Shown one piece after another: positions 1 to 19,071 of a DNA stretch of 32,015 nucleotides. A program made the translations under genes and the position numbers. The stretch is taken from the NCBI GenBank assembly GCA_949288455.1, contig CASEKF010000030.1, positions 1 to 32,015 on the forward strand, written 5' to 3'. Position 1 is the first letter of the stretch, and every line of letters starts with the position of its first letter. The notes below the pieces were generated by a model, which was not told the DNA's origin, did not search any database, and worked only from the letters and a program-made list of their open reading frames with translations. The stretch comes from an uncultured bacterium. GTDB lineage: Bacteria > Vulcanimicrobiota > CADAWZ01.

Positions 1-225
1 AAGAAAAAGAAGCGAGAGACAGAATAAAAAACGAACTGGAAAAAGAAGAAAAAGAAGCGAGAGACAGAATAAAAAACGAACTGGAAAAAGAAGAAAAAGA
101 AGCGAGAGACAGAATAAAAAGCGAACTGGAAAAAGAAGAAAAAGAAGCGAGAGACAGAATAAAAAGCGAACTGAAAAAAGAAGAAAAAGAAGCGAGAGAC
201 AAAATAAAAAGCGAACTGGAAAAAG
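1..225 (+). repeat. 45-bp coding tandem repeat, five units
   Basis: Units start at 1, 46, 91, 136 and 181 and differ by only a few bases (for example AAC/AGC and AGA/AAA codons). The period is exactly 15 codons, so the frame is kept. The array continues off the left edge. Confidence 0.95.
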
Positions 226-1208
226 AAGAACGAATAAGCGAAGAAGAGCAGGATAAATGCGGCGAAGAAGAACGAATAAGCGAAGAAGAGCAGGATAAAT
301 GCGGCGAAGAAGAACGAATAAGCGAAGAGGAGCAGGATAAATGCGGCGAAGAAGAACGAATAAGCGAAGAGGAGCAAGATAAATACGGCGAAGAAGAACG
401 AATAAGCGAAGAGGAGCAAGATAAATACGGCGAAGAAGAACGAATAAGCGAAGAGGAACAAGACTTAACAGAATACTCGTTTGCCGCTTTCAATCAAAAT
501 TTAGAAGCGACCCAAAAAGACGCTTATAAACTTCCTTCTGATTTTATAGGGACATCTGAAGCCTTCATAGTAGAAATACAAGACGACTCCATGGCTGATT
601 ATGGCATTTATCAAAAAGATCTTGCGGTAATTGAATATAACGACGCTCCTTCCAACGGATCTATAGTTTTCGCCATAGTAAATCATAAAGCTATTCTAAG
701 AAGTATAAATAGAGTTAATACGTTCATATCTCTATCTGCAGGACGCGACTCTCAGCCTTTGAAAACTGATATAAACAATATTAATATTATTGGAACTTTA
801 AAATTTATCTTTAGAACTCAATATTCTAATGAACCGGAAGGAAACGCAATATATCCTCTAATATCGTTTAACGGCAACGTTTACAACACGGAAAACGCAT
901 ATTCCCTTCCGGTAAGACTTATAGGGGTTAGAAACGCCTTTCTATATAGAATGACAGACGACTCTATGGCTGATTACGATCTCTTTAAAGACGATATAGC
1001 CATAATAGAAAACACCGAAGATCCAAACGGCGACGAAGTCGTTTTAGCCATATACGACAATGAAATAATAGTTAGAATACTCAAAAAGACAGAAAATTAC
1101 GTAGAATTACATGCAGGTTCCAAGCATATCAAACCTTTAAAAACGACTAGGGAATCGCTTGTTTTTCTTGGCGTTTTGAAAGGTCTGTTAAGAAAAATAA
1201 ACGTATAA
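1..1208 (+). CDS. Repeat-rich protein with two tandem S24 (LexA/UmuD-like) domains, 5'-truncated
   Basis: The frame is open from the left edge (codons begin at base 3) to the TAA at 1206-1208, so the ATG at 591 lies inside the gene and the true start is outside the window. About 401 residues are visible. Residues 1-75 are five 15-residue repeats (EKEARDRIKNELEKE), then about six 14-residue repeats (ERISEEEQDKCGEE), which should form a charged helix or coiled coil. Two peptidase-S24 folds follow, each with a DDSMADY motif matching the Ser-Met of LexA (Ser 196 and Ser 321 in window numbering). Counting 37 residues on, the spacing of LexA Ser119 to Lys156, lands on Arg 233 and Arg 358, so the general-base Lys appears replaced in both copies. 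I infer a non-cleaving or weakly active S24 fold. No DNA-binding domain is visible, but one could lie upstream. The fold is well supported; the function is unknown. Confidence 0.85.
   Translation, partial: EKEARDRIKNELEKEEKEARDRIKNELEKEEKEARDRIKSELEKEEKEARDRIKSELKKEEKEARDKIKSELEKEERISEEEQDKCGEEERISEEEQDKCGEEERISEEEQDKCGEEERISEEEQDKYGEEERISEEEQDKYGEEERISEEEQDLTEYSFAAFNQNLEATQKDAYKLPSDFIGTSEAFIVEIQDDSMADYGIYQKDLAVIEYNDAPSNGSIVFAIVNHKAILRSINRVNTFISLSAGRDSQPLKTDINNINIIGTLKFIFRTQYSNEPEGNAIYPLISFNGNVYNTENAYSLPVRLIGVRNAFLYRMTDDSMADYDLFKDDIAIIENTEDPNGDEVVLAIYDNEIIVRILKKTENYVELHAGSKHIKPLKTTRESLVFLGVLKGLLRKINV
231..470 (+). repeat. 42-bp coding tandem repeat, six units
   Basis: Units start at 231, 273, 315, 357, 399 and 441; the last one diverges near 464. 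The period is 14 codons. Early units encode Cys (TGC) where later ones encode Tyr (TAC), and GAA/GAG and CAG/CAA changes are shared by neighbouring units. This gradient fits stepwise local duplication. The array lies in the same reading frame as the 45-bp repeats and the S24 domains. Confidence 0.95.
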
Positions 1209-1326: not shown

Positions 1327-2592
1327 TTGTCTAACCGTTACAGCTTTCAAATAACAACTCTAGGATGTAAGGTCAATCAATACGAATCGGACAAAATGAA
1401 AGAGGAACTTTTCGCTTTAGGATTTCAGGAAGCAAAAAAAAATGAAAAAGCGGATCTTTATATCATAAATACCTGCTCCGTAACGCATATTGCCGATAGA
1501 AAATCGAGGCAACATATAAGAAAAGCTATAAATCAAAATCCGCAGGCAAAAATTATCGCGGCAGGCTGTTCGGCGGAAAACAAAAATTCAGGGATAAATA
1601 AAATAAGCGGAAATATTACGATTATCGGGAATAAAGGTAAAGAACATTTTAAAACTTTAATAACGCAACTTTTTCCGGAATGTACGTCCCATCATATTAT
1701 CACAAATTATCCTCTTTTCAGAAACAGAGCATATTTAAAAACAGGAGACGGATGCCAAAATTTCTGTTCGTACTGCGTAATACCTTATGTAAGAGGCCCG
1801 TTAACAAGCAGGCCGTCTAAGCATATACTTCAAGAAGCGCAGCTGCTGGCCGCTTCAGGCTGCAAAGAAATAATTTTGACTGCGATCCATTTGGGGGCGT
1901 ATGGCTACGGACTACAAGAAAAAACAAATCTCGCCTCGCTTTTAGAGCAACTAGCATGCGTTTTGCCCGGAGTAAGAATAAGGCTAAGTTCCATCGAGCC
2001 TTTAGACTTTTCCGAAAATATTATTAAGGTTATGAAAAAACATGCCAATATATGCAAACATGTTCATCTTTCTCTGCAACATTCATCAAACAAAATACTT
2101 AAAGCTATGAATAGAAATTACACGCAAAACGATTTCAGAAACATCGTCGCAAAGATTAGAGAAATAATCCCTAACATAACTATTACCGCCGATATTATCG
2201 TTGGCTTTCCGGGCGAAACGGAAGAAGATTTCCAAGAATTAAAAAAGTTTACGCAAGAAATAAAATTTTATAAATGCCACGTATTCAAGTTTTCTCCGAG
2301 AAAAGGGACTCCCGCAGCCTCGTATCCCAACCAAACTCCCGAAGACGAAAAACGCAGAAGAAGTTCAGAACTTATTGAACTTAGCTCTGCTTTATCTCTA
2401 AAAACTCATAAAGATATGATAGGAGACAAAGTAGAAGTTCTGGTAGAAAGCCAAACAGGCGAAAATTGCGACGGTTTTACGTCTAACTACGTCAAAGTTA
2501 AATTCAAATCGAATAAAAATCTTCTTAATTCGATTGCGACGATAAAAATAACGGACATACATAGCGAATACGTCATGGGACTAACGGAATAA
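1327..2592 (+). CDS. mtaB: tRNA t6A37 methylthiotransferase MtaB
   Basis: This radical-SAM enzyme adds the 2-methylthio group to N6-threonylcarbamoyladenosine at tRNA position 37 (t6A to ms2t6A). With the start used here it has 421 residues, usual for the family. The N-terminal UPF0004 domain shows its three cysteines (TTLGCKVNQYES, NTCSVT, AAGCSAE). The radical-SAM CxxxCxxC cluster is GCQNFCSYC at residues 143-150, followed by VIPYVRG. The motif after it (ILTAIHLGAYG) is of the MtaB type rather than the MiaB type. The tail fits a TRAM RNA-binding domain. An upstream in-frame TTG at 1252 lies inside the 19-bp hairpin, so TTG 1327 is preferred; it follows a purine-rich AAGAAAAGAG and places the first Cys about 14 residues in, as in known MtaB proteins. 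The Amj-like gene begins 3 nt after the stop. Confidence 0.93.
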   Translation: MSNRYSFQITTLGCKVNQYESDKMKEELFALGFQEAKKNEKADLYIINTCSVTHIADRKSRQHIRKAINQNPQAKIIAAGCSAENKNSGINKISGNITIIGNKGKEHFKTLITQLFPECTSHHIITNYPLFRNRAYLKTGDGCQNFCSYCVIPYVRGPLTSRPSKHILQEAQLLAASGCKEIILTAIHLGAYGYGLQEKTNLASLLEQLACVLPGVRIRLSSIEPLDFSENIIKVMKKHANICKHVHLSLQHSSNKILKAMNRNYTQNDFRNIVAKIREIIPNITITADIIVGFPGETEEDFQELKKFTQEIKFYKCHVFKFSPRKGTPAASYPNQTPEDEKRRRSSELIELSSALSLKTHKDMIGDKVEVLVESQTGENCDGFTSNYVKVKFKSNKNLLNSIATIKITDIHSEYVMGLTE

Positions 2593-16350: not shown

Positions 16351-18693
16351 ATGGAATTTTATAAACAGATATTACCTGTTACAATAGACAGAAAAGAAAG
16401 AAAAAATATTATAAAATCTCTATCAAAAGAATATAGCGCAATTCTCGAAGGAGCGGACGACGTAATAAAAGATAAACTTAACATAGTATGCCTTAATTAT
16501 GCGGCAAACGCCTGGGAATTATTTAAAGATAACGTAAGCGGATGCATCCTCTACATTTTTATACCTCAGCATCATAAACATATAGAAGTCGGGTGTTTTG
16601 CAAACGACGTAAAAGAAAAAAAAATATTTGAAAATTTTAAGTCAAGCGTAAAAAAGACAATAATAGCTCATGGTTACGACGCTGAAAATTTAAGATGGCG
16701 TCAATTTCTGTTTCCTAACGAAAGATTCAACGTAATAGACAGCGACAGCTCGGAAAAATCATTTGGCGGAACTTCAGATTCTACTACCATTGAAGCTCTA
16801 AAAGACAAACAGATAAGAAGTATTCTACGCTTAATAGGTTCGGGCGAAAAATTGATGGATCATATAGCCGAAAACTTTCCTCAAACTGATATATTTTCGA
16901 CTATAGATAAATTTATAAACTTAAACCTTGTCAGCAAAAATTTCTACGTATATTGTCGTAAAACCGGACATCAAATCAGTAGAGTCAAAGATATAGAATC
17001 CATTCAAGACGCCTCGTCAAGAGGAATGCAGTGTCCGTTTTGCGGAAAAACATTTATGGAGGAAAGAATAGAGCAAATATTATCAATAACTGCCGAAGGC
17101 GAAAAATTCGTAAAGAAAAATTACTGGCTGTCTCTGTATGTCGGATATACCTTATTAAATTTAGGCATAGCCCAAGGCAATATATCGATCAGACAAGAAA
17201 ACGATTTATCCAACAGCGATATTTTCGTAAGTCATTTCGGTAAATTGATTTATATAGCGATAAAAGAAAGTCCTCTAGCTTATGAAGACATATATCTATT
17301 CGCGAAAAGAGCGAAGTTTTACGAAGCGGACAAAACAATCCTTATAACCGACTCTAAAACAGACGTAAACTTAAATCTATTCCTAGCTAACATAGCTGAA
17401 GACATCTCTATAATAGACTCCGTAGAACAAACTTCCGACGTTTTGATTGATATATTAGAAAAAATAAAAATCAAAAGCGCATTAGACGCTATTGAACAAT
17501 TCGGTCCGATGACAAATATAAATCTGAAGACCACCATATCGGATTACTTTTTTAAAAATAAACGAGAAGAACTTATCTCTAAACTTGAAGGCACAAACGT
17601 ATATGCCCATACGTCCCTTATAAACGAAGAAGAGAAAGATATGCTTTACATAGAAGACGAAGAAGCTCTTATAGAAGAAGTTATATCAGAAGCTATCTTC
17701 TCGGCTGAAATAGAAGACGAACCTATCGATATGCAAGACGGCGGAGAAACGAACCAAGAAGAGATAAAACAATCGGACGGGGAACAAGCTGAAGAGGACG
17801 AAAAATCAGACGTTTCGGACGAATTGCTAAACGTAGAAGAAGATATAGAAGAAGAGGAAGATTTTCTTATTCCTGAAACGATAAAAGCAGGCTTTCAGTA
17901 TGGAAATGAAATAGAAATCCCGGAACTCTCGGCAAAAGAAAAACATCTAGATGAAATCCAGAATAAAATAGCGGAAGAAATAATCAAAACCGCTGATTCC
18001 GAAGGCGTCGACGCGAGCTACATGACAATGGAAGAAACTATAGCGGAGATGGCAAAAGATGAAATTCAAACTATTATAAGCGACGAATCGGGCTTCGCAA
18101 TCATATCGACTAATACAGACTCTGAAAGTTCCGACTCCATTTCGGCCTACGGTACGGAACTTCTGTACAATCTAAAAAGCGATATGAAAGAACTGTTAAG
18201 TAAAGAAATAGTATCTGTTTTTGCAGACACAGCCGATTTTGCCATATCGCTATATCCTCTAAACGGAGGAATAATTTCATTTAAACGGATTAAAGAAAAC
18301 GAAAATATTCAAGAATTTCCCGCTTCGTCTTCAGTTGAAATACGCAATTCTATAGCCGACAAAATTTTCGACAAACTTAAAAGTATAGAAGCGATCAACG
18401 AACTTATTTTATTTGACGAGAACGGCGACGTTGCTCAAAAAAGAACGGAAGATTTAAAAACCGTAGAGGCAATACAAGCCTTTATAAAGGAATTCTCCTT
18501 GCAAAACCTGGATCTTGCTCAGAGTATGACAGGAGGCAAAACAATACAGCAATTCTGCATATCAACGGAAGACATTATTTATTCTTTCGTATTCTTCAGC
18601 GACGGAAGCGTATTTGTCGCTCTGGTAGACGCTTCCGCAGGCAGAGAAATATGGAATTTAAAAATAATAGAATCAGCCAAGCTTCTTGCATAA
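16351..18693 (+). CDS. Large unrecognised protein: Zn knuckle, nuclease-like fold, Roadblock-like end
   Basis: I do not recognise this 780-residue protein as a named family. Residues about 150-200 look like a helical winged-helix-type segment (IRSILRLIGSGEKLMDHIAE). A zinc-ribbon-like pair follows: YCRKTGH (C202, H207) and CPFCGKTF (C228, C231). Residues about 285-360 read like a PD-(D/E)xK nuclease core: D290 IFVSHFGKLIYIAIKES, then AKRAKFYEADKTILITDS. The acidic residue two before K305 is Ala, so the site looks degenerate. Residues about 420-520 are very acidic (EDEEALIEEV, EEDIEEEEDF) and probably disordered. The last 100 residues (LILFDENGDVAQK to IIESAKLLA) have the alternating pattern of a Roadblock/LC7 fold. 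AAGAGG sets the start. A true Roadblock gene follows 30 nt downstream, supporting a joint role. All domain calls except the Zn knuckle are tentative. Confidence 0.55.
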   Translation: MEFYKQILPVTIDRKERKNIIKSLSKEYSAILEGADDVIKDKLNIVCLNYAANAWELFKDNVSGCILYIFIPQHHKHIEVGCFANDVKEKKIFENFKSSVKKTIIAHGYDAENLRWRQFLFPNERFNVIDSDSSEKSFGGTSDSTTIEALKDKQIRSILRLIGSGEKLMDHIAENFPQTDIFSTIDKFINLNLVSKNFYVYCRKTGHQISRVKDIESIQDASSRGMQCPFCGKTFMEERIEQILSITAEGEKFVKKNYWLSLYVGYTLLNLGIAQGNISIRQENDLSNSDIFVSHFGKLIYIAIKESPLAYEDIYLFAKRAKFYEADKTILITDSKTDVNLNLFLANIAEDISIIDSVEQTSDVLIDILEKIKIKSALDAIEQFGPMTNINLKTTISDYFFKNKREELISKLEGTNVYAHTSLINEEEKDMLYIEDEEALIEEVISEAIFSAEIEDEPIDMQDGGETNQEEIKQSDGEQAEEDEKSDVSDELLNVEEDIEEEEDFLIPETIKAGFQYGNEIEIPELSAKEKHLDEIQNKIAEEIIKTADSEGVDASYMTMEETIAEMAKDEIQTIISDESGFAIISTNTDSESSDSISAYGTELLYNLKSDMKELLSKEIVSVFADTADFAISLYPLNGGIISFKRIKENENIQEFPASSSVEIRNSIADKIFDKLKSIEAINELILFDENGDVAQKRTEDLKTVEAIQAFIKEFSLQNLDLAQSMTGGKTIQQFCISTEDIIYSFVFFSDGSVFVALVDASAGREIWNLKIIESAKLLA

Positions 18694-18723: not shown

Positions 18724-19071
18724 ATGGAGAAAATATTGGAACAACTATCTAAGCTAAGAGGCGCTCAAGGCGCGCTGTTGGTTAGTAAAGACGGGTTATT
18801 AATTTCAGCGATTGGACAGTTCAATAACGATCCGGATTATATAGGCGCATGCGTATGCGAAATGTATTCTTCAATAGACGTAATGACAAACGAAAGATTT
18901 CAATCCAACCACCCAAAAGAGATAACGGTAGAATCTGACAATCACAATACGTTTATAATAGACGTAAACGAAGACGCAATATTGGCGATTATAGCGAATA
19001 GTCAAGCAAATAAAGGTCTGATATTGCAAGAAGGCAAACGAGCTGCGAATGAACTTGCAAAATATATTTAA
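18724..19071 (+). CDS. Roadblock/LC7 domain protein
   Basis: This small 115-residue single-domain protein is of the Roadblock/LC7 (MglB-like) family: GAQGALLVSKDGLLIS starts the first strands, and ITVESDNHNTFIIDVNEDAILAIIA and LILQEGKRAANELAKYI complete the fold. In bacteria these dimeric proteins commonly regulate Ras-like GTPases such as MglA, controlling polarity, motility or other localised processes. No MglA-type GTPase is in the window. GGAGAG lies 7 nt before the ATG. It sits 30 nt after the large protein that itself seems to end in a Roadblock-like fold, so the two could pair as a heterodimer. It ends at a convergent terminator. Confidence 0.82.
   Translation: MEKILEQLSKLRGAQGALLVSKDGLLISAIGQFNNDPDYIGACVCEMYSSIDVMTNERFQSNHPKEITVESDNHNTFIIDVNEDAILAIIANSQANKGLILQEGKRAANELAKYI

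Follow-up and report, generated by a model that had tools for sequence, protein, structure and literature searches.

The gene at the start of the window, the 32,015-nucleotide stretch of DNA analysed here, is likely to be a LexA, passed down vertically, in which self-cleavage was lost before the S24 domain was duplicated and which now acts as a regulator unable to cleave itself. LexA is the textbook self-cleaving repressor. From comparison of sequences, the protein encoded here is probably a repressor that DNA damage is unable to inactivate by the normal route.

The window is a whole contig (C30) of a draft genome (G000), and its start falls within a tandem repeat. The last 401 codons of the LexA-like gene encode a charged repeat linker, formed by two tandem repeats that occupy residues 1–155 of the open reading frame, followed by two S24 domains of the LexA type (Table 1). 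Pfam Peptidase_S24 matches this frame twice, with 91.5 bits for the two matches together (E = 3.9e-26; cut-off 23.3 bits), and NCBIfam TIGR00498 gives 87.8 bits (equivalog cut-off 110.95) for the window half alone, with the N-terminal half left out. Elsewhere in the window, the alternate lipid II flippase Amj (PF10997; 2596–4242) has two domains fused in one chain of 548 residues, the Pfam model being 253 positions long, and a protein of 780 residues without a Pfam match (16351–18693) is encoded directly upstream of a Roadblock/LC7 protein (18724–19071).

Table 1. Features of the LexA-like gene and its neighbour (window positions unless another contig is named)
Feature	Position	Strand	Description
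LexA-like gene, C-terminal part	3..1208	+	Open reading frame of 401 aa, 5'-open, no start codon
5' part of LexA-like gene	contig C64, L039:5475-6095		Encodes LexA winged helix, PF01726, 72 bits
Linker repeat A	1..230	+	45-bp unit, 5.1 copies; 15 aa, EEKEARDRIKNELEK type
Linker repeat B	223..457	+	42-bp unit, 5.6 copies; 14 aa, ERISEEEQDKCGEE type
S24 domain 1, pseudoprotease	501..797	+	Pfam PF00717, 49.8 bits; AlphaFold pLDDT ~80-95
Ser, domain 1 (LexA Ser119 position)	588..590	+	TCC; Glu in G002, G003
Arg, domain 1 (LexA Lys156 position)	699..701	+	AGA
S24 domain 2, pseudoprotease	891..1175	+	Pfam PF00717, 47.4 bits; AlphaFold pLDDT ~88-96
Ser, domain 2	963..965	+	TCT; Asp in G002, G003
Arg, domain 2 (LexA Lys156 position)	1074..1076	+	AGA
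mtaB-like tRNA methylthiotransferase gene	1330..2592	+	Same neighbour in G002, G003

Both domains in the window keep the Ser-Met motif and carry an Arg 37 residues after the Ser, exactly as the original prediction had it. The Ser-to-Arg spacing and the flanking strands align without gaps to the LexA proteins of the phylum and to LexA of known structure. A displaced catalytic Lys is excluded by the lack of gaps in this alignment and by the LKK that follows the Arg of domain 2 and is shared with Escherichia coli LexA. Arg occupies the catalytic-Lys position in all six S24 domains of three species, namely that of the window and its sister species G002 and G003, and also in a single-domain relative in a fourth genome, G004; chance and sequencing error are therefore excluded. 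Across this branch Arg is present in 7/7 S24 domains, and in five of these the Ser has given way to Glu, Asp or Ala. No copy of the branch has an Ala-Gly scissile bond at the aligned position, the aligned region reading YSFAAFNQNLEA and YPLISFNGNVYN in the window species and VGKVAAGAPIT in the LexA proteins of the phylum. The domains are nevertheless maintained: between G002 and G003 dN/dS is ∼0.27 for domain 1, ∼0.25 for domain 2 and ∼0.26 overall, and both are under purifying selection. Together these observations lend good support to the proposal of a fold without normal autocleavage.

The accompanying suggestion of altered chemistry is disfavoured, as there is no conserved Ser for the Arg to activate. 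One alternative would have the S24 domains of the window species cleave slowly with Ser and Arg as the pair, for instance at elevated pH, making the protein a slow or stress-tuned self-cleaving repressor. The Ser retained in both domains of this species argues in its favour, as does another S24 regulator, of XRE type, which in these same three genomes has an invariant Ser together with an invariant Arg; for E. coli LexA carrying Arg at position 156, some residual autodigestion at high pH has also been reported. However, the Ala-Gly bond is absent, the Arg is kept where the Ser has become Glu or Asp (sister species) or Ala (G004), and the pKa of Arg lies far above that of the buried Lys that it replaces. 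We consider slow Ser-Arg cleavage very improbable. A point against the preferred reading of a regulator unable to cleave itself is the retention of both Ser residues in the window species. They sit in a heptad, DDSMADY, that is the same in the two domains, which would be surprising for a site without any role. The heptads (582–602 and 957–977) agree at 19/21 bases, and the domains are ∼30% identical outside them; either gene conversion acting locally or a role that has been retained is possible.

Departures from the usual catalytic residues also occur in other S24 proteins of these genomes. The XRE-type regulator (L001:1246-1887 on contig C36 of the window genome, with L053 and L054) has a relative in G042 (L162) with Lys at the catalytic position. 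Small S24/S26-like proteins without a DNA-binding domain (L004:1267-1881 on contig C3 of the window genome, and L060 on C17 of G004) have a degenerate nucleophile, with Gly or Asp in place of Ser.

A DNA-binding domain upstream of the S24 pair had been suggested as something to look for, and a LexA winged helix is indeed encoded where contig C64 of the same genome ends. This contig end matches the repeat at the window start over 198 bp at 98.5% identity, and the open reading frame on C64, which begins MKKQELTDIQKKILEVLKKYIQKNSIPPTIKELCGLCGLTSSSSVHHQL, runs from the winged helix into the same 15-residue repeat. In G002 and G003 the LexA winged helix likewise reaches a contig end (L045, L046) and the tandem S24 domains open another contig (L040, L041), the ends of the two halves matching at ∼90%. 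The repeats of G002 and G003 differ from those of the window species; the gene is broken at the same kind of repeat each time. The mtaB gene lies 3' of the tandem S24 half in 3/3 species; it is evidence of orthology and not part of the system. Since the halves lie on separate contigs in all three species, their join is deduced from the shared repeats, and it is strongly indicated by these sequences that winged helix and tandem S24 domains form one gene. With the contig-end overlap counted once, the protein would be at least ∼540 to 800 residues long, mostly acidic linker, the repeat linker amounting to at least ∼230 residues in the window species and ∼490 in G002. Neither half was found in G001, a fourth genome of the family that is 69% complete. 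The linker repeat has a weak DNA match because a protein on contig C61 of the window genome (L042:3011-4171) has an IPT/TIG-like N-terminal part that is followed by a long (KAKEEQDK)n repeat.

The position of the gene at a contig end within a tandem repeat could also point to an artefact of assembly or sequencing, with a chimeric or erroneous contig end. Two further species with different repeats share the architecture, the mtaB neighbour and the Arg, which refutes an artefact for the tandem S24 part and makes it extremely improbable overall.

The relatives in the phylum indicate how the inherited LexA reached this form. G004, from another family of the same order, encodes a single-S24 relative in which Ser is replaced by Ala and Lys by Arg and which has no Ala-Gly; the same genome has a canonical LexA (Ser, Lys, AAG) adjoining a Y-family polymerase. 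In G012 one LexA has Gly in place of Ser and no Ala-Gly and the second is canonical, and in G005 Ser and Lys are kept and the Ala-Gly site is absent. Most other LexA proteins of the phylum are fully canonical, and nearly all canonical ones keep Ser and Lys. At the level of sequence, this series reads as a graded decay of self-cleavage. In a tree of the DNA-binding domain, the winged helix groups with the degenerate LexA of G004 (96/94), apart from the canonical LexA of that genome. In the S24 tree, whose long branches leave the outer placement unsure, the three domain-1 copies split from the domain-2 copies (92/91), and the duplication is therefore older than the species of this family. Tandem S24 copies were restricted to this family among the 149 genomes of the phylum searched. 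An origin from a phage or plasmid is excluded, with no match among phages, plasmids or viral contigs. The original prediction had taken the same change in two diverged copies as a sign of selection. Arg is indeed present in both, but selection acting twice is not required: because the single-domain relative in G004 already has Arg, one Lys-to-Arg change preceding the duplication would explain all copies and is the simplest account of them.

The predicted structure of the tandem region comprises two confident S24 folds (AlphaFold, 247 residues, mean pLDDT 91.9, pTM 0.86, from 20 alignment rows of which the deep ones spanned domain 2 only). A structure search of the PDB returned matches that were all LexA, UmuD or CI (best E 1.3e-7), with TM-scores up to 0.82 over the LexA C-domain. 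LexA dimerises through a GxxxxxxR strand region near its C-terminus, and the alignment shows that this region is kept in both S24 domains. Such a pTM calls for a fixed arrangement of the two domains relative to each other, which the model predicts with confidence, so that the internal dimer suggested earlier, as a pseudo-dimer of the two copies, is possible, whether or not its contact is the LexA dimer interface.

Several proposals concern what the S24 pair does in a LexA that cannot cleave itself. It may be a preassembled intrachain dimer, one polypeptide then doing the job of a LexA dimer, or it may double the contacts between two chains and so give a very stable repressor. This proposal refines the preferred reading rather than competing with it; the orientation of the domains in the model, which a pTM of 0.86 over 247 residues would need to be defined, and the GxxxxxxR region kept in both copies argue for it. 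A first AlphaFold model from three sequences was poor (pLDDT 48), however, and one winged helix per chain would leave a pseudo-dimer with a single DNA reader, so that we regard it as possible but doubtful. An elaboration that we judge unlikely is a single-chain pseudo-dimer in which the dead S24 pair associates within the chain and the repeat linker allows operator half-sites that lie far apart to be held by one chain or by two chains linked together; this would be a LexA blind to DNA damage, with its release signal acting at the linker or the dead cleft. It is rather unlikely, although also compatible with the preferred reading, that the S24 folds are pseudoprotease receptors, with signal input through the binding of a peptide, partner protein or the linker itself in the dead cleft. 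Purifying selection on both domains despite the lost catalytic residues, and the invariant Arg at the former Lys site, could be explained in this way. A purely structural role fits the purifying selection equally well, however; no partner is known, and the Ser site is variously occupied by Ser, Glu, Asp or Ala.

The genomic context was examined for an SOS response. RecA is encoded in all four genomes of the family, G000 to G003, and a Y-family polymerase (PF00817) in none of them. No second strong LexA-type winged helix was found in G000, G002 or G003, draft genomes that are 97–99% (G000, G002) and 89% (G003) complete, the weaker matches resembling an HrcA-type repressor; as far as these drafts show, the window gene is the only LexA-type DNA-damage repressor of this bacterium. 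The operator search covered one box type, the Gram-positive-type SOS box GAACNNNNGTTC, and one self-derived motif. The box does not occur in front of recA or the lexA-like gene and is not enriched in G000 (20 versus 20 in the control). The motif TTTGSCAAA lies upstream of the lexA-like gene in 3/3 species and is more frequent than its control in both G002 and G003, though not in G000; as a self-operator it is rejected, 18/20 of its palindromic sites in G002 being intragenic, as expected by chance. The two motifs thus yielded no operator or target gene.

The mechanism that we propose for the non-cleaving LexA is as follows. The winged helix would still bind operator DNA, while the S24 domains would serve assembly, by pairing within or between chains, or act as a receptor, and not in proteolysis. 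Repression would be lifted without RecA-triggered self-cleavage, by a route that could be abundance, modification, a partner or cutting of the linker by a host protease, and the lineage would be without a classical SOS switch. The relatives suggest that the cleavage site was lost first, followed by the change of Lys to Arg and the loss of Ser, and then by S24 duplication and growth of the linker.

With LexA the protein shares the order of winged helix and S24 fold, the spacing of the active-site residues and, by structure search, the fold itself; it differs in having two S24 domains, Arg for Lys156, no Ala-Gly and a long repeat linker, and Ser has been lost in the sister species but kept in that of the window. 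A non-cleavable LexA is already known from Synechocystis sp. PCC 6803 (sll1626), in which Ala-Gly has become Gly-Gly and Ser has become Asp, and which is thought to act outside the classical SOS response (PMC3091678, PMC7567884). The protein described here is likewise a LexA orthologue in which the cleavage site and catalytic residues are lost, but that of Synechocystis has a single S24 domain and an ordinary linker, with no loss of the Lys reported (PMC3091678, PMC7567884); the two losses are presumably independent. UmuD and UmuD' share the S24 fold, and UmuD functions as a dimer, but UmuD lacks a DNA-binding domain and its partner, a Y-family polymerase of the UmuC type, is absent from G000–G003. 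IrvR of Streptococcus mutans is likewise a LexA-like regulator uncoupled from RecA (PMC7101444), but it keeps Ser, Lys and Ala-Gly and cleaves itself. The CI-type non-canonical LexA of Bacteroidetes also belongs to the S24 regulators that deviate from the standard LexA (PMC8565304), but with another DNA-binding domain and a working SOS response.

The tandem pseudoprotease form appears to be new; the novelty lies in the S24 domains being arranged in tandem, in the Arg that never varies and in the long linker made of repeats. For annotation, our results carry the warning that a 'LexA' in genomes of this kind cannot be taken to mean that an SOS response exists. An inherited LexA that has lost its scissile bond, its Lys and mostly its Ser, and that is nevertheless under selection with its S24 domain doubled, amounts to a natural experiment on LexA without SOS. 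A single phylum offers a graded series, from intact LexA through forms without a cleavage site, forms that have lost Ser and forms that have lost both Ser and Lys to the tandem protein, which can be used to study the loss of self-cleavage and what takes its place.
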